64,000 nucleotides of DNA. Source: Hallerella succinigenes. Lineage in GTDB: Bacteria; Fibrobacterota; Fibrobacteria; Fibrobacterales; Fibrobacteraceae. How positions within the stretch are numbered: the stretch's first letter is position 1; every line of letters starts with the position of its first letter. The position numbers and the translations under genes are program-made. The stretch covers positions 1,612,001-1,676,000 of the forward strand of contig NZ_PGEX01000001.1 in the NCBI RefSeq assembly GCF_002797675.1, in the 5' to 3' direction. Below the pieces are notes generated by a model that was not told the origin of the DNA, did not search any database, and saw only the letters and a program-made list of their open reading frames with translations. Positions 24,411 through 35,928 of the stretch are shown in pieces.

Positions 24411-25181
24411 ATGGAAGGTCAGCCGGGCAAGGAAAATTTCATTCACCGTATTCTTCGGACGAAGCCTTGGGCTTACGCGCTGCTTTTGCTGGCGGTCGTA
24501 CTTATTTTGTGCGCAGTCGTTTTCGATAAGATTGCGATGCCGATTGTGGCACGTTCCTATGTCGAAGAAAAGACCGTCCCGGCACTTGAAGGCTTGGACA
24601 GCTTGACCGCTGTTCAGAAGGCGACGGAAGCGGGCTTTAACGTTCTCTTTGCCAAGGAACGCGAATACAGCAAGACCTATGACGTGGATCTCGTGATGCG
24701 TCAGAATCCGCTCGCCGATCAGAAGTCGAAGCCGGGTCGCACCATCCATTTGACGATTTCCGATGGCTTGCACCAGTTTACGGTTCCGGATCTCTTTGAC
24801 AAGAACGGTTCGGAAGCGGTTGTCGCAATTGAGAAGGCTGGCTTGAATATGGGCCTCACATTCTCTATGCCGCATACAAATGTCAAAAAGGGCAAAGTCG
24901 TTCGCACGAATCCTTCGGAAGGTTCCTTGGTGCACAAGGGCGATACGGTGGACGTGTTCCTTTCTTCGGGCCCGAATGGGGCGAAGGTGGAATTGCCGGA
25001 AGTCGTTGGAAGTCGTTTGACGGAGGCTCTTTCGAACTTGCGCTCGGCCGGTTTTATTATCGGCAAAACGGAACGTCGTAAAAATTCCGGAGAACAGTCC
25101 GGTCGGGTTTTGAAACAGGATCCTGCTGCGGGTTCTGTCCTTTCGGCGGGCTCCCGTGTAAATCTTGTCGTTGCGGAGTAA
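24411..25181 (+). CDS. Membrane-anchored triple-PASTA protein without a kinase domain
   Basis: 256 residues. A short cytoplasmic tail is followed by one membrane helix at about residues 22-43 (YALLLLAVVLILCAVVF), then three PASTA repeats (about 53-120, 121-188, 190-256), for example FTVPDLFDKNGSEAVVAIEK and VELPEVVGSRLTEALSNLRS. PASTA domains usually bind peptidoglycan fragments or lipid II and hang from Ser/Thr kinases or PBPs. Here there is neither a kinase nor a transpeptidase domain. It starts 1 nt after the Crp-family stop. Confidence 0.85.
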   Translation: MEGQPGKENFIHRILRTKPWAYALLLLAVVLILCAVVFDKIAMPIVARSYVEEKTVPALEGLDSLTAVQKATEAGFNVLFAKEREYSKTYDVDLVMRQNPLADQKSKPGRTIHLTISDGLHQFTVPDLFDKNGSEAVVAIEKAGLNMGLTFSMPHTNVKKGKVVRTNPSEGSLVHKGDTVDVFLSSGPNGAKVELPEVVGSRLTEALSNLRSAGFIIGKTERRKNSGEQSGRVLKQDPAAGSVLSAGSRVNLVVAE

Positions 25182-25190
25182 GGGGATTTC

Positions 25191-27218
25191 ATGCGTCTGA
25201 AGCTTCTCGCATTTTTTTTGCTGAGCTTAGCCATTGTAGCCTGTAGCGGTTCGAAACAGGTCGCGGTGCGGCAGGCGCCTGCAAATTCGACGCAAGAAGA
25301 AGCGAAGAAGCCGCGTTACCCGGTCAAAATGGACAGTGCGGAACTTTTGCGTTTGCAGATAGCGCACAGTTCCTATTTGCGCGCTCTCGCTTTGCAGAAT
25401 CAAGGGGAATATGCGCTTGCGGAACAGTTCATGCGCCATGCGTATGAAGCGGATCCGGAAAACCGCTATTTGGCTTTCTCCGTTTTGGAATTGATGAAAA
25501 TGCGCGGAGGCTCTGCAGAAGCGGCAGCCCTTGCAGAAAAAGCCAAAAATTTGAAAGGCAAACGGACGAGCAATCAGTACGCGCTTTTAGGGCGCGTGTA
25601 TAGCGAACAGTCGAATCTGGACAGTGCGCTTGTCTATTATAAGAAGGCACTCGATTCGAGTGACCAGAACGTTCACGCCGCATACGAATATTCTTTGCTG
25701 CTTGAAATCGTTCACAATTACGATGAACTGATTCGCGTTTATGGAATCCTTTTGCCGCAGATTGGATATCCGCAGTCGATGCTCGAACGCCAGATTTCTC
25801 TGCTTGCGAATGCGAAAAAGGATTCGGCGTTGGCGGACCTTTTTGGGGAAGCCTATGAAGCCCGCGGGGACCGCATCTTTTTGGAAAATCAGATCCGTCT
25901 GCTGTTTGGCATGAAACGCTTTGAAGAAGCGGTGGGGCGTGTGAATGAATTCCGCGCGGATTCGGCTTTTGCAGATGACTCCCTTTCGATCGCCTTTTTG
26001 ACGGCAGCTTATATCGGGCTCAATCAGGATTCCGTGATGGTGGATTCCTTGAAGGAAATTTACAAGCGTCATCCGGATAGACTTCACGTTTTGATGAATC
26101 TCGCCCTGCTAGAAACGAAACTCGAAAAGAAGGACCAGGCTTTGGTTCACTGGAAGCGCCTTTCGACAGCGGATAAGTATGCGGCAAGTGCCTATGGCAT
26201 GCTCAGCGCCTATGCGATGGAAGATAAGGATTCCGTCAAGGCTTTGGAATATTTGGAAAAGGCTTATGAACATGAGCCTATCGCTTATCGCAACGCATTG
26301 CTTGTGCGCTATGCGAATGCAAAGGCTTATCAGAAGGCTTACAAGGTTTTAGACAAAGCGTTGCTTCCTAGTCCGAAACTGGATACTCTCCGCGCCAAGG
26401 TGCAGGAATCGGGCGACTTGGAAGAGCTTCGCAAATTCGATGCGGCGGCGACCCTCGACGTGGCGAGCGTGCATTATGAATATGGCTCCTTCTTGCAGAT
26501 GAATGCGGAAGAACTGGAACGCTCTCCGACGACTCCGGAAAAATTGGACCAGGCGAAGCTTTACCGTAAAAAAGCGGACGACCATTATTTGGAAGCGGCC
26601 AAGATCGGCGGTGAATCGCAGAACCTGCTCTTTGCCTACGGTTCGAATCTTTTGATGCTCCAGCAGATCGATTCCGCGATTGTCGTCTTCAAGAAGATTT
26701 TTGAAAAGTATCCGCAAGATGCGATGGCGAAGAATCACTTGGGCTATTACCTCGTGGACTTGAATCGCAACGCTGAAGAATTGAAATGGGGAAGCTCCCT
26801 GATCGATGAAGCTTTGAAATTGAGTCCGTCGAATGTGGCATATATGGATTCGAAGGGTTGGGCTTTGTATCGCTTGGGCAAGTATCCGGAAGCGTTAATG
26901 ATGATGGAACAGGTGGAAACAGCGGAAGATTCGCTGAAGGAAATGTTCTACCAGGATACTTCGATTTATTCGCACCTCGCTGCAATCTGCCAGGCGCTTT
27001 CTTTGAATAAGCGAGCTTTGGATTATTACCAGCGCGTTCTGAATATCGATCCGAAGAATGAAAATGCGAAGAAGCAGATTGAAGTTTTGAAGCAGGCGAT
27101 TCAAAAATCCAAAGAAGAAGAGTCTGTGGAAAAGCTTGCCGAGGACGCAAAAACAGTACCTGCGAACGAACCCGCCAAGGTTCCCGCTGCAGAAAAGGAT
27201 TCCGGTAAAACGCCTTGA
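25191..27218 (+). CDS. TPR-repeat lipoprotein
   Basis: 675 residues. A lipoprotein signal with lipobox AIVAC (Cys at about 18) is followed by many tetratricopeptide-like helical pairs across residues 60-640, for example ALVYYKKALDSSDQNVHAAY, AKNHLGYYLVDLNR and ALDYYQRVLNIDPKNENAKK. The C-terminus is a lysine/alanine-rich tail. The LolB-like gene follows with a TTGA start/stop overlap. In Pseudomonas a TPR lipoprotein gene (lbcA) also sits just before lolB, from memory, so an envelope scaffold role is plausible but inferred. Confidence 0.82.
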   Translation: MRLKLLAFFLLSLAIVACSGSKQVAVRQAPANSTQEEAKKPRYPVKMDSAELLRLQIAHSSYLRALALQNQGEYALAEQFMRHAYEADPENRYLAFSVLELMKMRGGSAEAAALAEKAKNLKGKRTSNQYALLGRVYSEQSNLDSALVYYKKALDSSDQNVHAAYEYSLLLEIVHNYDELIRVYGILLPQIGYPQSMLERQISLLANAKKDSALADLFGEAYEARGDRIFLENQIRLLFGMKRFEEAVGRVNEFRADSAFADDSLSIAFLTAAYIGLNQDSVMVDSLKEIYKRHPDRLHVLMNLALLETKLEKKDQALVHWKRLSTADKYAASAYGMLSAYAMEDKDSVKALEYLEKAYEHEPIAYRNALLVRYANAKAYQKAYKVLDKALLPSPKLDTLRAKVQESGDLEELRKFDAAATLDVASVHYEYGSFLQMNAEELERSPTTPEKLDQAKLYRKKADDHYLEAAKIGGESQNLLFAYGSNLLMLQQIDSAIVVFKKIFEKYPQDAMAKNHLGYYLVDLNRNAEELKWGSSLIDEALKLSPSNVAYMDSKGWALYRLGKYPEALMMMEQVETAEDSLKEMFYQDTSIYSHLAAICQALSLNKRALDYYQRVLNIDPKNENAKKQIEVLKQAIQKSKEEESVEKLAEDAKTVPANEPAKVPAAEKDSGKTP

Positions 27219-27934
27219 AAAAGTTCTTCCCTTTACTCGCGATCTTTGCTCTTGCTTGGATGTTTATCGGTTGCGGACCGCGTTTGGCAAAGGGACCCGC
27301 AGAATCTTTGGAAGTGCACCTTCCGGACAGTCTCAAGGCAAAATTCTCGATTGAAGTGAACGATTCCGTGGAAGGTTCGCATTCGCTTTCGGGCGTTTTG
27401 TTTGCGGTGCCGTACAAGCGTTATCGCATGGAATTTTCGGGGCCGATGGGCATTGGCGTCGCTTCTGTTCTGTGGAGCGATACGGGTTGGACCTTGACGG
27501 TTTCGACGCGAAAGACTTATGCGGTCGGCAAGGGCTACGTACTCGGTGGCTTTGCTGGGATTCCGGTCTTTGACATTCACCAGATTGCGGCTTTCTTCTG
27601 GGGAGTCACTTTGCCCCACGGCGGAACGATCGATTCAACTCTGGATTCTTTAGAGAATCAGAAAATCTACGGGACAAATGCCTTTGGAATGCCTTTTGTG
27701 GCGACGCGGAATGCGGACGGTCGCATTGTGGAACTTTCTCAAGGGCCGGAACGCTTGGAATTTGTCGATTATGCAGAATTTGGAACTCTAGTGGCGCCTG
27801 CGGAAACGCGTGCTTATCGAGAAGGACGAAACGTACTTTCCATTCGCATTAAAAAGGTCCAAACGGATGCGGAATGGGGAAGCGGTACGTGGCGCCTGCC
27901 GGTTCCCGAAAATTATCAACTTTTGAAAGATTAG
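27215..27934 (+). CDS. LolB-like outer-membrane lipoprotein
   Basis: 239 residues. TTG start overlapping the upstream TGA. The lipoprotein signal ends in FIGC (Cys at about 20). The rest is beta-rich, with segments such as KAKFSIEVNDSVEGSHSLSG, RYRMEFSGPMGIGVASVLW and GWTLTVSTRKTYAVG, a pattern seen in LolA/LolB-fold lipoproteins that accept lipoproteins at the outer membrane. No decisive motif exists, and DUF4292-type proteins share the fold. The call leans on secondary-structure pattern, lipobox and the TPR neighbour. Confidence 0.5.
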   Translation: MKKFFPLLAIFALAWMFIGCGPRLAKGPAESLEVHLPDSLKAKFSIEVNDSVEGSHSLSGVLFAVPYKRYRMEFSGPMGIGVASVLWSDTGWTLTVSTRKTYAVGKGYVLGGFAGIPVFDIHQIAAFFWGVTLPHGGTIDSTLDSLENQKIYGTNAFGMPFVATRNADGRIVELSQGPERLEFVDYAEFGTLVAPAETRAYREGRNVLSIRIKKVQTDAEWGSGTWRLPVPENYQLLKD

Positions 27935-27947
27935 GATTTTGTAGTTT

Positions 27948-30900
27948 TTGAATATGAGACGTTTTTTCTTTTTCGCCTGGCTCGCCCTTTTTGCGTCTTC
28001 CTTTGCGGTGGACACGCTTGAAATTTTTGCGTTGCGTGTGCAGTTCTTGCAGGAATCTCCGGACAATTCCTTGACGACGGGAACGGGTCGTTTTGACTCG
28101 GACAGTGATACTTCCAATGCGAACTACAGCTTGGATCCGAGCGGTCACCGTGCGAGTGCCGCGTACTGGCAAAAGCATTTTGATTTTGCAAATAATTATT
28201 ACAAGGCGGTGAGCAACGGAAACCTGGTGATCAAGGCTCGAATTTTTCCGAGTGGAGAGCCTTATACCGTTGACCATTACATTATCGATTACAACCGTAC
28301 CGCCAAAAAGAAAGGCGAAAAGACCGCGGAGTTTGATGAAGCCCGTAGCCGTGACTACATGAATTTTATTTGGGACGCGGTCACTGAAGCGAACCAGTCG
28401 AAGGATACGCTTGACAATCCGTTTATCGTTCCGCAGTCCAAGAATTCGAATACCAAGCGAGCCTTTATGATTATTCATGCGGGCGCGAGCCGTTTGCTCG
28501 ACGGCGGCAGCATGGGAACGAATAATGCGGATACCCAAGGCGATTTCATGGACGTCTATGTGACGCAGAATTTTTGGAGCTATCTCGATTCGACGGATAC
28601 GACCCGAAACTGTGCCAAGGATTTGAATGGCATGATCATTCCGAATGCGACGTTCGATACGCTGAAGACGATGATGGTGACGAGCGAAACCGCTTCGCAG
28701 GATGGTTTGAACTGGGGCATTAACGGGACAATCGTTTACCAGATCGGTCGAGAACTCGGCATGCCGAATACCTATGATGTGGTGCAGGGAATTTCCCGTT
28801 TGGGCTATTTTGATGTGATGGACTTTGCCGGTTACAATGCGGGCAACGGCTTTTTTCCTGTTTTGCCTTCTGCATGGGTGCGTTCTTACATGGGCTGGAC
28901 GAAGCCTGTGACGGTTTATCCGCCGAGCTCGGGTTCGATTACGGAGAATATCGTGGCGGCGGGCTCTGGAAACGGAACGGAAGTGGTGAAGGTTCCGCTT
29001 TCTTCGAATGAATATCTGTTGATTGAAAACCGGGAGCGTTCGCTGGGCGATTCGGCAAGGATTGCGGTTTCGTATGTACCGGCTTCGGATGTGGCAGCGG
29101 AAGCGGATTATGAAATCGTGACGAAGGTTTACCCGGTCGATAGTTTGCACGTTGCCTTTGAAGACAGCACTTGCGATTCGAAGGGGAAGAATTGCGTGAA
29201 GAACAAGAAGAAGCTGAACGGTGTGATTGTGAACCTTTCTTCTTTTGACGCGGGAATTCCTTCGAGCGGCATCGCCGTATGGAAGGTGAACGATTGGTAT
29301 TTGAGGGAAGGCTTGCCCTATGGCGTTGCGAACTTCTGGGGCGGCGATACGGTGCGCGATCACCAGTATGGCATTATGCTTGCGGAAGCGGACGGCATTC
29401 TTTCGATCGGTAAAACGTTCAAGAATGCGCTCGGCCAGGATACCTATGATTACGGTTCCGGTTCGGATTTGATTCCGCATGTGCGGCAGGGTAAAGATTC
29501 GCCAAAGGATACGGTCTGGTCGATTAAACCTTCGGGCTACGGCAATACGGCGACGACAACAGGCGGCTATACGGGCATTACCGTGACCGCGAAAAAGGCG
29601 AAGGGTTATCACAAGGAAAAAACGGCAAACGCTTTTATGGGTGATAGCGTGGTGAACTTTGCCGCCGCTTCGATTCCGGTGACGATTTCCTGGGCTTCGA
29701 ATTCTTTGATTTCCGGCTCCGAGTTCCCGAAGAATGTCGGTTTGAATGCGGCTGTCCGTGGCGCTGTGGCGCTCGATTATCCGGAAGGCATGGCGGTCGG
29801 TGAAGGCGAAAAGTTGATCGTCTTTGGCGCGGCGGACGGAACGCTTCAGGTGATGACGGCTTCGGGAAGCGCTTTGATGGAAAGCGATACGACCGTCAAG
29901 ACGTCGATCCTTTCGAATGCAGATTCGACAGAAACGGTTTCGCTCTACCGCTTGGGAAGCTCTTATGGAAATCTCATCGGCATAGCAGCGGTGAAGGATT
30001 CCGTGTTCAGCTTGCATCAAAAGAAAGGTCTCGTTCGCACCGTGCTTTCCTCTGCAATCGATCAGGTTCAGTATGACCGCGAACTCGCTTCGCTGAAGGC
30101 GCCTGTAATCGGGCCGATGATTCGAAACGGTTACGTCTATGCTGCGGACTCGAACAAGCTTTACCGCTTCAAAACTTCGAACCTTTCGAAAGTGGAATCC
30201 TTTAACTTGCCGCAAAACTTTATTCCGCATGATATGGCGCTTTGCCCGGACGGGGAATCAGACAACATCGCTCTCGTCGGTAGGAATGCAGAAATGGCGC
30301 TGTACAAAGGCGATGAAGGCCGTGTGCAAAAGCTCGCCTCTCCGAAGATTGCGAATCAGAATTGGATCAGCGTGAAAAAGCAGAGCTTCCGCGTTGCGTG
30401 CTCGGACTTTGACCGCGACGGCCGTTCTGAAATGTTTGTGCTCGGCAGTCGCGGCTATGCGACGATGGTCCGAGCAAACGATTCCGCAACGGTCCTCTTT
30501 GCTCCGCGTTCCTTGAAACGTGGAAACGATGGAAAAAACGCTTTGGATGAAGAAACCTCTCCGATTGCCATTGGCGACGTGAATGGCGACGGTTATCCGG
30601 ATGCGGTCTTTGTCGGTTACAATTTGGTTTATGCTCTCGACCGTTCGGGCGTTGTGCTTTCGGGCTTCCCGGTGACGGTAACGAAGAATTTGCCGGAGTA
30701 TTCCTTCCTTTCGGATCCGCTGGTGATGGATGTGACGGGGGATTCGCTTCCGGAAATTCTCATTGGAACGAATGGCGGCATGCTGATGGCGTTTAATTCC
30801 AAGGGCAAGGCTGTTACAGATGGCTTCCCGATTTCGGCGGGCAACTTTGAATATGGCGAAACGGTTTACCCGCTGACGTTCTTTGTGGACAAAACGATGG

Positions 30901-31373
30901 ATTCGCTTTCGACGCCTCAGGTTTATGCGTTCCAGCGCCATTCCGCTTCGGGATATAACCTGGCAAAGGCTTCGACGCATTCGGACGTGATGGCAAGATC
31001 CTGGAGCATTCCGGGGGCTGGTTATGAACGCTCGAACTTCTTTGACGCTTCGAAGCTTCCGGAACCTGTGGCGAGCGATTCTGTGGAAAGCATTGAAGAA
31101 TTCTTTGTGTATCCGAACCCGGTGCGCGGAGGTGTCGCGAATGTGCGTTATACGCTCGGCATGAATGCAAAGTCTACGACACTTGAATTTTACGACATCA
31201 CGGGCCTTTGCGTTTTTTCGAAGAAACTTGGGGCTGCTAGCAAGGGCGCAAATCAAGCAGACCAGTTGGACATTTCTCGCTTGGGCAGTGATGTTTACAC
31301 GGCGCGTTTGAAGGTGAAGTTCACCTCGGGCAAAAAGAAAGAAAAGCTCTACCGCGTAGGCGTTGTCCGCTGA
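27948..31373 (+). CDS. Secreted M6-peptidase-like protein with degenerate active site, FG-GAP repeats and T9SS sorting domain
   Basis: 1141 residues from TTG 27948 (AGGA 11 nt upstream); ATG 27954 is the alternative and removes two residues. A signal peptide (FFFFAWLALFASSFA) precedes an M6 (immune inhibitor A-like) domain at about residues 20-330, recognised by RAFMIIHAGASRLLDGG and by GRELGMPNTYDVVQGIS...YFDVMDFAGYNAG. The zinc motif HExxH is replaced by YQIGR (28737-28751), so it should not be an active metallopeptidase. FG-GAP/VCBS-like segments follow (DFDRDGRSEMFVLG, IGDVNGDGYPDAVFVG, VMDVTGDSLPEILIG). The end, about residues 1045-1141, matches a Por/type IX sorting domain (FVYPNPVRGG). 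It is probably exported to the cell surface. Confidence 0.82.
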   Translation: MNMRRFFFFAWLALFASSFAVDTLEIFALRVQFLQESPDNSLTTGTGRFDSDSDTSNANYSLDPSGHRASAAYWQKHFDFANNYYKAVSNGNLVIKARIFPSGEPYTVDHYIIDYNRTAKKKGEKTAEFDEARSRDYMNFIWDAVTEANQSKDTLDNPFIVPQSKNSNTKRAFMIIHAGASRLLDGGSMGTNNADTQGDFMDVYVTQNFWSYLDSTDTTRNCAKDLNGMIIPNATFDTLKTMMVTSETASQDGLNWGINGTIVYQIGRELGMPNTYDVVQGISRLGYFDVMDFAGYNAGNGFFPVLPSAWVRSYMGWTKPVTVYPPSSGSITENIVAAGSGNGTEVVKVPLSSNEYLLIENRERSLGDSARIAVSYVPASDVAAEADYEIVTKVYPVDSLHVAFEDSTCDSKGKNCVKNKKKLNGVIVNLSSFDAGIPSSGIAVWKVNDWYLREGLPYGVANFWGGDTVRDHQYGIMLAEADGILSIGKTFKNALGQDTYDYGSGSDLIPHVRQGKDSPKDTVWSIKPSGYGNTATTTGGYTGITVTAKKAKGYHKEKTANAFMGDSVVNFAAASIPVTISWASNSLISGSEFPKNVGLNAAVRGAVALDYPEGMAVGEGEKLIVFGAADGTLQVMTASGSALMESDTTVKTSILSNADSTETVSLYRLGSSYGNLIGIAAVKDSVFSLHQKKGLVRTVLSSAIDQVQYDRELASLKAPVIGPMIRNGYVYAADSNKLYRFKTSNLSKVESFNLPQNFIPHDMALCPDGESDNIALVGRNAEMALYKGDEGRVQKLASPKIANQNWISVKKQSFRVACSDFDRDGRSEMFVLGSRGYATMVRANDSATVLFAPRSLKRGNDGKNALDEETSPIAIGDVNGDGYPDAVFVGYNLVYALDRSGVVLSGFPVTVTKNLPEYSFLSDPLVMDVTGDSLPEILIGTNGGMLMAFNSKGKAVTDGFPISAGNFEYGETVYPLTFFVDKTMDSLSTPQVYAFQRHSASGYNLAKASTHSDVMARSWSIPGAGYERSNFFDASKLPEPVASDSVESIEEFFVYPNPVRGGVANVRYTLGMNAKSTTLEFYDITGLCVFSKKLGAASKGANQADQLDISRLGSDVYTARLKVKFTSGKKKEKLYRVGVVR

Positions 31374-31385
31374 CGGAGGTGCAAG

Positions 31386-32204
31386 ATGCGCAACAGGAAA
31401 TTCAAAGTCGCCGCCTTTGTTCTTGTAAGCATGCTTGGCGCCTGTTCTTCTCCGACGAACGGGGAAACGGGCGGCTTGGATTGCCCGGAATGCGACATCA
31501 AAACGAGTTCCGCTTCGAACACGAGTTCTTCGATGGAAACGTCTTCGGGGTCTAACAGTTCTTCGGGTTCAAACACATCCTCGAGCTCGGTAACGTTGTC
31601 CGTTTCTTGGATTAAAACTTCTGAATTTTCGGTTTCGCAAACGGAAATTACCCAAGCCGATTACGAAGCTTTGATGGGAACGCTTCCGACGCAGATGGTA
31701 AAAGCTAAAGGCGATTCTTTTCCGGTTTCGAATGTGAGCTGGTACGATGCTGTTCTTTTTGCCAATGCGTTTTCCAAACATTTAGGACTCGACACCGCTT
31801 ATTCTTATACCTCAGTGAATGCGGGGAATAAAATTGTGGGACTCCGGACGGACTTAGAAGCGAACGCCGTTCGGCTTCCGACAAAAGCGGAATGGCAGGT
31901 GGCAGCTCGTGCGGGGTCTTTGGATACTTATTACTGGGGCACGGCAAAAGCTTCGGATTATGCACAGTACAACAATTTGACGGATGCGTATCAGCTTGTG
32001 GGGCAAAAGTTGCCAAACGCCTGGGGACTTTATGACGTTTCCGGAAATGTTGCCGAGTGGACAAACGATACGGCTCTCTGCGGCGGAAATTGGACGTCGG
32101 TAGCGAAGGAAATCGCTTTGGACGCCTATGAAAAACATCTTCCGGATTACGCTTCGACAACGACCGGCATCCGTGTTATTCTTATTTCAAAGAACGAACC
32201 ATGA
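31386..32204 (+). CDS. Lipoprotein with formylglycine-generating-enzyme (SUMF1/FGE) domain
   Basis: 272 residues. GGAGG precedes the ATG. The lipobox is MLGACSS (Cys at about 20), followed by a serine/threonine linker (residues 38-75) typical of Fibrobacter surface proteins. The FGE-sulfatase domain (about 78-268) shows NVSWYDAVLFANAFSK, VRLPTKAEWQVAARAG, GLYDVSGNVAEWTND and a final GIRVIL. In FGE relatives this fold acts as an oxidase or as a ligand-binding module. Only one late cysteine (ALCGGNW) is seen, not the catalytic Cys pair of true FGE, so enzymatic activity is doubtful. The stop overlaps the methyltransferase start by 4 nt. Confidence 0.8.
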   Translation: MRNRKFKVAAFVLVSMLGACSSPTNGETGGLDCPECDIKTSSASNTSSSMETSSGSNSSSGSNTSSSSVTLSVSWIKTSEFSVSQTEITQADYEALMGTLPTQMVKAKGDSFPVSNVSWYDAVLFANAFSKHLGLDTAYSYTSVNAGNKIVGLRTDLEANAVRLPTKAEWQVAARAGSLDTYYWGTAKASDYAQYNNLTDAYQLVGQKLPNAWGLYDVSGNVAEWTNDTALCGGNWTSVAKEIALDAYEKHLPDYASTTTGIRVILISKNEP

Positions 32205-33544: not shown

Positions 33545-34438
33545 CTAGACTTTGATTTTTTGGGCGCTAATCACGACACTAGTTCCCTTAGTACTTGGTG
33601 TAATTTTGATTTCCACGAGATATGTATAATCGGATGTTTCCAATTGATAGATTGTTGTGCCACTTTTGTCGCTTACCAACATATAGTCCGCATTTTGCAA
33701 TGCTGATTTTAATGAATTGACAAATGTTGTCAACGCGGCGTCTAATTGCAAATAGCCCTTGCTCGCCTTCCAGATGGTGGTGTCCACGGTAGACAAATCG
33801 CTTTTCGAGAAATTGGCGAACTCCTCCAAAAAGTCCAAATGTCCATCGTTAAATACCGCTTCCGAAGCGGAAGACATCACGATCACGCTTGAGCTGAAAG
33901 GCACCTCGCTGCTGCTGGAGAACACGGCGCTTGAGCTGGAAGGCTCCTCACTGCTGCTGGAGAACACAGCGCTTGAGCTGGAAGGCACCTCGCTGCTGCT
34001 GGAGAACACGGCGCTTGAGCTGAAAGGCACCTCGCTGCTGCTGGAGAACACAACGCTTGAGCTGAAAGGCACCTCGCTGCTGCTGGAGAACACAACGCTT
34101 GAGCTGAAAGGCACCTCGCTGCTGCTGGAGAACACAGCGCTTGAGCTGGAAGGCTCCTCGCTGCTGCTGGAGGACGAAGCACTGCCGAAGGAAGAAAAAT
34201 GCTGGATGATCCAGTGGTGGCCAATATCCTCACAATCGGACTGGATAATGGATTTCACCAAGGACTGTTTAGAGACATCCACATCGAGGAATGAAAATTC
34301 TATAAAGCCATGGCCGTAACCAGTTTTTACCTTAGCATTTTTGAACAACTCCATATAGGGATGCGAGGATTTGAGACCGGTAAGCTCCGCCACCTTGGCC
34401 CAATCGCCAGCGTTGCTCGCATCGTCAATTGCATCCAC
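33545..34438 (-). CDS. Serine-rich repeat protein, probably 5'-truncated by the IS element
   Basis: 297 residues from a GTG at 34438, with no signal peptide or lipobox. The frame stays open further upstream to a TAG at 34496-34498, right at the IS edge, giving residues LCGLGGILRDDYIESEKTI before the GTG. The true start is therefore probably lost. A ~70-residue N-terminal part is followed by a serine linker built from seven 14-residue units (S-S-S-E-V-P-F-S-S-S-V-V-F-S type), then a ~110-residue C-terminal domain (YLQLDAALTTFVNSLKSALQ; YTYLVEIKITPSTKGTSVVI) that I do not recognise. Confidence 0.7.
   Translation of the reverse strand: MDAIDDASNAGDWAKVAELTGLKSSHPYMELFKNAKVKTGYGHGFIEFSFLDVDVSKQSLVKSIIQSDCEDIGHHWIIQHFSSFGSASSSSSSEEPSSSSAVFSSSSEVPFSSSVVFSSSSEVPFSSSVVFSSSSEVPFSSSAVFSSSSEVPSSSSAVFSSSSEEPSSSSAVFSSSSEVPFSSSVIVMSSASEAVFNDGHLDFLEEFANFSKSDLSTVDTTIWKASKGYLQLDAALTTFVNSLKSALQNADYMLVSDKSGTTIYQLETSDYTYLVEIKITPSTKGTSVVISAQKIKV
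33891..34184 (-). repeat. 42-bp tandem repeat, seven units, coding
   Basis: Seven head-to-tail copies of a 42-bp unit beginning GAGCTGAAAGGCACCTCGCT (plus strand), six nearly identical and the last diverged at its end. The unit is a multiple of three, so copy-number change by slippage or recombination would lengthen or shorten the serine linker without breaking the frame. Confidence 0.95.
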
Positions 34439-34530: not shown

Positions 34531-34575
34531 ATTGCAAGGTTTTCTAAAATATGATTGAAAACCTTGCAATTTTTT
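34531..34575 (+). promoter_or_regulatory. Hairpin with T-tract directly before the transposase start
   Basis: A perfect 14-bp inverted repeat (ATTGCAAGGTTTTC / GAAAACCTTGCAAT) with a 12-base loop is followed by six T residues, and the transposase ATG comes immediately after (34576). It has the form of an intrinsic terminator and would also hide the start region in read-through transcripts, a known IS strategy against activation by outside promoters. Confidence 0.8.
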
Positions 34576-35928
34576 ATGTACAGACCGCCAAAATCCCACG
34601 CACAGACAAGCCTTTTCTGTTCCCTTGAGGAGCAGTTGAACCACAAGCATTCCCTCTACGTTCTCGCGAACAAGATTGACTGGAACAAGTTCGAGACCGA
34701 GTTTTCGAAACGGTTTGACGACAAAATGGGTGCGCCGAACAAGCCGATCCGTCTCATGACCGGGCTCATCATCCTGAAGCACATCCGCAACGTATCGGAC
34801 GAGTCCGTCGTGGAGCAGTTTCAGGAAAACGCCTATTACCAGTATTTTTGCGGAGAACGGTTCTTCTCGACGGAGCAACCCTGCGACCCGAGCGAACTTG
34901 TTCACTTCCGGCACATGATTGGCGAAGCGGGCATGGACATGATCCTCAAGGAAAGTATCCTCGTCAACGATGACCACGATAAACAAGGACCGACAGGATG
35001 CGGCACGGTCTTTCTTGACACGACCGTGCAGGAAAAGAACATCACGTTCCCTACAGACGCCAAACTTGCGAACAAGATAATAGAACAGGTACAGAGGATC
35101 GTGGAAGAGCATGATCTTCCGCAAAGACAGTCCTACAAGAGAACCTTGAAGAAGGTCCATCGTGACCAGCGTTTCCGCAATCACCCGAAGAACGGCAAGA
35201 AGGCTCACAAGGCAGATCGCAGGCTGAAGACAATCGCGGGACGGCTCGTCCGTGAATTAGAGCGAAATCTCGCCAGCAAGAACTTGTTGAACACGTACAA
35301 AGAAAAAATCGAGCTTTTCAAAAAAGTTCTGGCACAGAAGAAATGCGACAAGGACAAGGTCTATTCGCTTCACGAACCCGAAGTAAAATGCATCGGCAAG
35401 GGCAAGGAACACAAGAAATACGAGTTCGGCAACAAGGTGTCAATCGCCCGGAGCTACAGCGGCATCATTGTCGGCGCGGTCTCGTTCCGGGACGAGTATG
35501 ACGGACATACGATAGACGATACGCTTGACCATGTTGAACAAATGCTTGGATTCAGGCCGAGCCAGGCCGCATGCGACCGAGGCTACCGCGGACAAAAGGA
35601 ATCCGGAACGACAAAGATCGTGATACCGGACGTCCCGAAGAAAAACGCGACTTACTACCAGAAGGAAAAGGCTCACAAGCTTTTTTGCAAGAGGGCAGGC
35701 ATCGAGCCTATCAACGGCCACCTGAAAAGCGACCACCGTATGGGTAGAAATTTCTACAAGGGAATCTTTGGCGACATGCTCAATGCAAAGCTTGCAGCAG
35801 CGGCGTTCAACTTCAAGAGGGCCATGAGGCGCTTTTTTGTCCTGTTGGAATGGCTATACTGTTGCTTCCTTTGCCGGGAAGGGGTGAATAAAAACGGCGA
35901 ACCTCCTTATCCTGCGCTCGCGAAGTGA
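34576..35928 (+). CDS. IS5-family DDE transposase
   Basis: 450 residues. I start at ATG 34576; an upstream in-frame TTG lies inside the hairpin. The InsH-type N-terminal domain (RLMTGLIILKHIRNVSDESV, then YYQYFCGERFF) is followed by DDE catalytic segments: VFLDTTVQEKNITFPTDAK (first Asp), QAACDRGYRG (second Asp) and the Glu-containing region near INGHLKSDHRMGRNFYKG. The frame is intact, so the element may still be active. Confidence 0.9.
   Translation: MYRPPKSHAQTSLFCSLEEQLNHKHSLYVLANKIDWNKFETEFSKRFDDKMGAPNKPIRLMTGLIILKHIRNVSDESVVEQFQENAYYQYFCGERFFSTEQPCDPSELVHFRHMIGEAGMDMILKESILVNDDHDKQGPTGCGTVFLDTTVQEKNITFPTDAKLANKIIEQVQRIVEEHDLPQRQSYKRTLKKVHRDQRFRNHPKNGKKAHKADRRLKTIAGRLVRELERNLASKNLLNTYKEKIELFKKVLAQKKCDKDKVYSLHEPEVKCIGKGKEHKKYEFGNKVSIARSYSGIIVGAVSFRDEYDGHTIDDTLDHVEQMLGFRPSQAACDRGYRGQKESGTTKIVIPDVPKKNATYYQKEKAHKLFCKRAGIEPINGHLKSDHRMGRNFYKGIFGDMLNAKLAAAAFNFKRAMRRFFVLLEWLYCCFLCREGVNKNGEPPYPALAK

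Follow-up and report, generated by a model that had tools for sequence, protein, structure and literature searches.

The gene at 27948-31373 (+) of the window, which is the whole 64,000-nucleotide stretch of Hallerella succinigenes DNA analysed here, raises the question of what a relative of the M6 metallopeptidases does once its zinc motif has been replaced, and how old that replacement is. Nucleotides 28737-28751 encode Y-Q-I-G-R where active relatives have HExxH, and a scan of the whole protein, which we call M6i, found no HExxH elsewhere.

Domain layout and predicted fold of M6i

The open reading frame at 27948-31373 (+) is uninterrupted. The TTG at 27948 is a mechanical start only; the ATG at 27954 (MRRFFFFAWLALFASSFAVDT), two codons after it, is the likelier start and gives a protein of 1139 amino acids. 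The features of the gene and of its two immediate neighbors are:

27215-27934, +: LolB-like lipoprotein gene upstream of M6i, supported by synteny and named by eye only
27954-31373, +: M6i gene, encoding a pseudo-M6 domain, then a beta-propeller, then a T9SS sorting domain (open frame, NF052323 and TIGR03296 matches, phylum-wide orthologues)
27954-28007, +: probable Sec signal sequence, MRRFFFFAWLALFASSFA, judged by eye from the translation
28008-29687, +: N-terminal region with a predicted immune inhibitor A (M6) fold, residues 19-578 (AlphaFold2; structural matches to 4yu5_B and 4yu6_B)
28737-28751, +: pseudo-zinc motif YQIGR replacing HExxH, with Q at 28740-28742 and R at 28749-28751
28818-28820, +: Met of FDVMDFAG, which the family alignment sets against the Met-turn region of active relatives
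29700-30968, +: beta-propeller, residues 583-1005 (Z 27-31 to 7- and 8-bladed propellers, e.g. BamB)
30405-30620, +: FG-GAP matches inside the beta-propeller (Pfam FG-GAP_3 and FG-GAP)
31107-31322, +: T9SS C-terminal sorting domain (Por_Secre_tail, PF18962; 29.5 bits against a cutoff of 27)
31386-32204, +: FGE-fold lipoprotein gene downstream of M6i (PF03781, 4e-27), conserved in Fibrobacteraceae

Both the FG-GAP and the Por_Secre_tail matches lie above their Pfam cutoffs, and the sorting domain scores 20.3 bits on the NCBIfam model TIGR04183, below its cutoff of 23. The full-length AlphaFold2 model has a pLDDT of 88.2 and places a C-terminal beta domain after the propeller. Searches of Pfam and NCBIfam matched no carbohydrate-binding or adhesin family in M6i.

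Sequence models place M6i near family M6 at scores under the curated cutoffs. It matches TIGR03296 with 51 bits (cutoff 110.8) and NF052323 with E=9.2e-83 and 278.8 bits (equivalog cutoff 600), and the Pfam Peptidase_M6 model (PF05547) gave no match. The same genome encodes a second M6 protein (L061:4434-6971; C1:2373295-2374110) with an intact HEFSH motif, DUF4859 and a weak T9SS tail. This protein passes TIGR03296 and serves as an internal control; PF05547 is silent on it too. Against ten HExxH-bearing relatives, hhalign returned E=1.8e-105, with YQIGRELGMPNTYD facing the HEFGHQLGLPDLYD-type stretch, and with two of the family's classical active M6 proteins the result was E=2e-15, the register being unchanged. 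A PDB search with the single M6i protein as query found no match, so that a profile was required; the 49-row family profile reached immune inhibitor A (4yu5) with E=5.3e-10 and lined the pseudo-motif up with the zinc helix. Every one of the 49 aligned rows, whether active or inactive, has the Met of FDVMDFAG.

Because propellers filled the fold search made with the full-length model, the N-terminal domain (residues 19-578) was folded separately by AlphaFold2, with a pLDDT of 89.9 and a pTM of 0.92. This model matched 4yu5_B with a VIA Z of 22.0 and an rmsd of 3.4 over 384 residues, the next entry having a Z of 8.6, and matched the InhA2 zymogen (4yu6_B) with a Foldseek E of 1.1e-15. The predicted fold of the M6i N-terminal region is thus of the M6 (immune inhibitor A) type. 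M6i shares this fold with immune inhibitor A2 (family M6; PDB 4yu5 and 4yu6) over the 384 structurally aligned residues, which are about 17% identical, and has its motif at the zinc helix, but lacks the zinc motif and carries a C-terminal propeller and a T9SS tail. The sequence-only reading had assigned the protein to M6 by pattern and reported all three HExxH residues as lost. Both points are borne out by the profile match, the structural overlay, the register of YQIGR and the scan for another HExxH; of the family models, TIGR03296 and NF052323 agree below their cutoffs and the Pfam model does not match. M6i is very probably not an M6-type zinc protease.

Age of the motif loss and retention in Fibrobacterota

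The replaced motif extends through the phylum. NF052323 matches were found in 167 of 168 Fibrobacterota genomes, including 89/89 high-quality ones, and none of the 168 reaches the cutoff of that model. Among 58 Fibrobacterota orthologues, HExxH is present in none. The first motif position holds N in 41 sequences, S in 11, Y in four and H in two; Q at the second position and R at the fifth each occur in 56/58, the exceptions being Q to L in two genomes and R to Q in two genomes. Both Q and R rank with the better-conserved residues of the domain, the Gly and Pro around them are invariant, and only four species, all from the window's genus, have Y at position 1. As read from these alignments, the motif loss was inherited from the Fibrobacterota ancestor and the N-to-Y change is the sole recent one. 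The earlier view of three independent substitutions therefore has to be revised, since no orthologue has HExxH, most carry NQxxR, and only N-to-Y belongs to the genus.

Comparisons inside the genus gave dN/dS values of 0.065-0.10 for the whole gene and of 0.04-0.09 for the pseudo-M6 stretch, and the frame is intact in nearly all orthologues. M6i is under purifying selection and anciently inherited. The gene had also been described, from the sequence alone, as intact, retained and encoding FG-GAP repeats plus a T9SS sorting domain; this agrees with the Pfam scores, the dN/dS values and the occurrence in 89/89 high-quality genomes.

An inactivated M6 protein exported by type IX secretion is, as a concept, already catalogued in NCBIfam. 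NF052323 (T9SSA_dep_M6i, "T9SS-dependent M6-like inactivated metalloprotease") describes a homologous M6-like region without HExxH joined to a T9SS sorting domain, as in M6i. M6i differs from it in score (278.8 bits versus 600) and in the Fibrobacterota NQxxR in place of SxxxS or LLxGS. M6i lies outside catalytic M6 by the HExxH test and outside the NF052323 equivalog by score, and is a homologue of both. A search of the open literature, subscription literature being outside its scope, found no papers on the M6i family. What appears to be new is a phylum-wide, sub-cutoff Fibrobacterota branch with an NQxxR signature, the linkage to porU and porV, and the pattern of an adjacent HExxH peptidase.

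Genomic context across phyla and in the window's family

We scanned one genome per species (84,980 species) with the inactive alignment as query and kept the best 80 loci; because the query was inactive and only these loci were kept, active members are under-sampled and the survey is unbalanced. Among the best 80 loci, an intact HExxH occurs in Fermentibacterota, Caldifarciminota (WOR-3), some Zixibacteria and one uncultured genome, and the motif has been lost from Ignavibacteriota, Bacteroidota, Chlorobiota, Rhodothermota, KSB1, Calditrichota, Latescibacterota, Gemmatimonadota and one Zixibacteria locus. Outside Fibrobacterota, the replacements are lineage-specific (SxxxS, LLxGS and KFFGH); as other phyla differ in this way, for instance in SxxxS and LLxGS, no single pseudo-motif is required across the lineage. 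Fibrobacterota and Raymondbacteria form a single clade with strong support, and the zinc-site state changes twice on the best tree, or once when starred branches are applied. Loci above the NF052323 cutoff, again among the best 80, belong to Ignavibacteriota, Rhodothermales and a KSB1 genome. Locus L095, from Ignavibacteriota, reaches 980 bits, so NF052323 is a model of the lineage's Ignavibacteriota side.

A recurrent gene order surrounds these loci. A PorV-family gene lies directly upstream of M6 or M6i at 57 loci from deep Fibrobacterota and other phyla, and PorU is found further upstream in 27 loci with this arrangement. Directly downstream, 38 loci carry a gene for a Peptidase_MA_2 (HExxH) protein with a PD40/TolB-like propeller, in which the H, E and H of the motif and a later E (WFxEG) are invariant in 18/18 aligned sequences. 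The active homologues of Fermentibacterota and Caldifarciminota (for example L126, L131 and L130) resemble M6i in their full-length profile (E=1.8e-105), and those of Fermentibacterota have the porU-porV context in common with inactive relatives; they differ from M6i in keeping HExxH and lack the adjacent Peptidase_MA gene. Among testable loci, defined by at least 1.5 kb of downstream sequence and with the Fibrobacteria class left out, the adjacent peptidase gene is present at 36/37 inactive versus 0/11 active loci, and the sole inactive locus counted without it (L139) has just 1.6 kb of downstream sequence. The association between zinc site and peptidase has a Fisher p of 4e-5 on raw loci, but only one independent contrast (with the starred branches) or two lie behind it, and the correlation is for this reason not statistically established. 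Of 15 genomes with an active M6, 12 have weak matches to the peptidase model, mostly to propeller parts, and 3 have partial relatives of the peptidase that are not linked to M6.

In the window's family, synteny gives the order purA-crp-PASTA-TPR-LolB-like-M6i-FGE lipoprotein, and none of porV, porU and the peptidase gene is linked to M6i. The LolB-like gene (27215-27934), which matched nothing in Pfam and NCBIfam searches, is syntenic 5' of M6i in Fibrobacteraceae and parts of the class. The FGE-fold lipoprotein (31386-32204) also matches GldK/PorK and TIGR02171 weakly. At 24411-25181, the PASTA-repeat protein has no kinase domain, and its match to the Stk1 kinase model is confined to the PASTA end. 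A transposase gene (DUF772 and weak DDE) occupies 34555-35928 and adjoins a Ser-rich repeat ORF without family match (33545-34438, -). Another region of the genome (L159:1061-4114) holds four near-identical tandem lipoprotein genes of about 200 amino acids each.

The T9SS components and the peptidase lie at scattered loci in the window's genome. SprA (C1:1283151-1289732) is above cutoff, a PorU-type sortase (C1:3038573-3041869) scores 389.8 bits, below the cutoff of 420, a PorV relative (C1:2088892-2091048) passes the PorV family cutoff, and a relative of the peptidase (C1:2000766-2004167; 574 bits) keeps HEFSH. Across the relatives, SprA is found in 61/61 and PorU-type matches in 60/61 genomes, and the peptidase model matches all 61 Fibrobacterota genomes searched, some via propeller parts only. 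The Fibrobacterota PorV-family protein itself (L180:856-3207, the C1:2088892-2091048 gene of the window's genome, and L073:3846-6083) is about 740-950 amino acids long, with a Reg_prop/PorZ-like beta-propeller between the first PorV segment and the remainder of the barrel.

A proposed role for M6i

In the mechanism that we favor, M6i would descend from a secreted M6 metalloprotease and be non-catalytic, and its signal sequence and type IX sorting domain would probably deliver it to the outer surface. The pseudo-M6 domain would no longer bind a catalytic zinc in the M6 manner while keeping a fixed shape, and, together with the beta-propeller, it may act as a scaffold or client-binding subunit of a surface maturation module with PorV, PorU and the HExxH Peptidase_MA/propeller protein. 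Retention throughout the phylum, combined with the linkage in relatives to export genes and an intact protease, argues that M6i is probably a structural partner and not an enzyme. We give about an even chance to M6i being a non-catalytic, T9SS-exported scaffold or binding partner in a T9SS surface module. We infer its surface location, its contact with PorV, PorU and the peptidase, and its scaffold role; the contact is read from the operons of relatives and may not hold in the window's family, because M6i is unlinked there.

The Porphyromonas attachment complex, which consists of PorU, PorV, PorQ and PorZ, offers a precedent. Its PorZ subunit is a surface protein that combines a beta-propeller with a T9SS-type C-terminal domain and brings A-LPS to the sortase (PMC8545088), making a non-enzymatic propeller partner plausible. 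M6i resembles PorZ in having both of these domain types (PMC8545088), but PorZ contains two propellers and lacks an M6 fold. M6i as a replacement for PorZ was considered and rejected, since PorZ occurs alongside M6i, with 7/16 genomes above the PorZ cutoff.

M6i could instead be ordinary T9SS cargo, that is, a surface binding protein or adhesin for a plant polymer, protein or surface glycan that stands outside the secretion machinery, and its linkage to porU and porV would then be that of a major cargo co-expressed with its exporter. The sorting domain and propeller fit such a cargo, as does the lack of T9SS gene linkage in the window's family, and pseudo-catalytic domains often turn into binding domains. 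However, presence in every high-quality genome of a phylum of diverse lifestyles, and a position directly behind porV in many phyla, would be unusual for a niche adhesin, and no carbohydrate-binding or adhesin family matched in Pfam or NCBIfam. We regard the cargo explanation as possible but on the unlikely side. The label of adhesin, proposed from the sequence alone, has no specific evidence behind it, and the porU-porV-M6i-Peptidase_MA linkage suggests a T9SS surface module instead.

A further explanation is that M6i has another enzymatic activity, the Gln and Arg of NQxxR and their invariant neighbors forming a new catalytic or ligand site. This would account for Q and R in 56/58 orthologues and for the invariant Gly and Pro around them, but the same conservation may be structural, and within Fibrobacterota Q has changed to L and R to Q in two genomes each. 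Since the other inactive phyla have SxxxS, LLxGS or KFFGH at this place, a shared new chemistry is unlikely, and we consider a new activity improbable. Finally, decay of M6i into a pseudogene-like M6 remnant without a role, which the loss of all three catalytic motif residues and the recent N-to-Y change might suggest, was rejected as hardly credible given the 89/89 retention, the nearly always intact frame, the low dN/dS (about 0.06-0.10) and a loss that predates the phylum.

Returning to M6i as a structural partner, a more speculative and in our estimate unlikely extension is that the pseudo-protease and the HExxH protease are a dedicated pair in a T9SS surface-maturation module of FCB-group bacteria. 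M6i would be the scaffold or substrate presenter, and M6 catalysis would have been lost where the Peptidase_MA/propeller protein joined the porU-porV cluster. If true, such a pair would be a T9SS component not yet described. More broadly, the retention of M6i and its linkage to T9SS and peptidase genes suggest that type IX secretion, which is thought to be the route of Fibrobacter cellulases to the cell envelope (PMC6851124), has an accessory part that is still undescribed. The family's mix of active and inactive members, with a gene context that tracks the zinc site, provides a natural comparison for the change from enzyme to scaffold.
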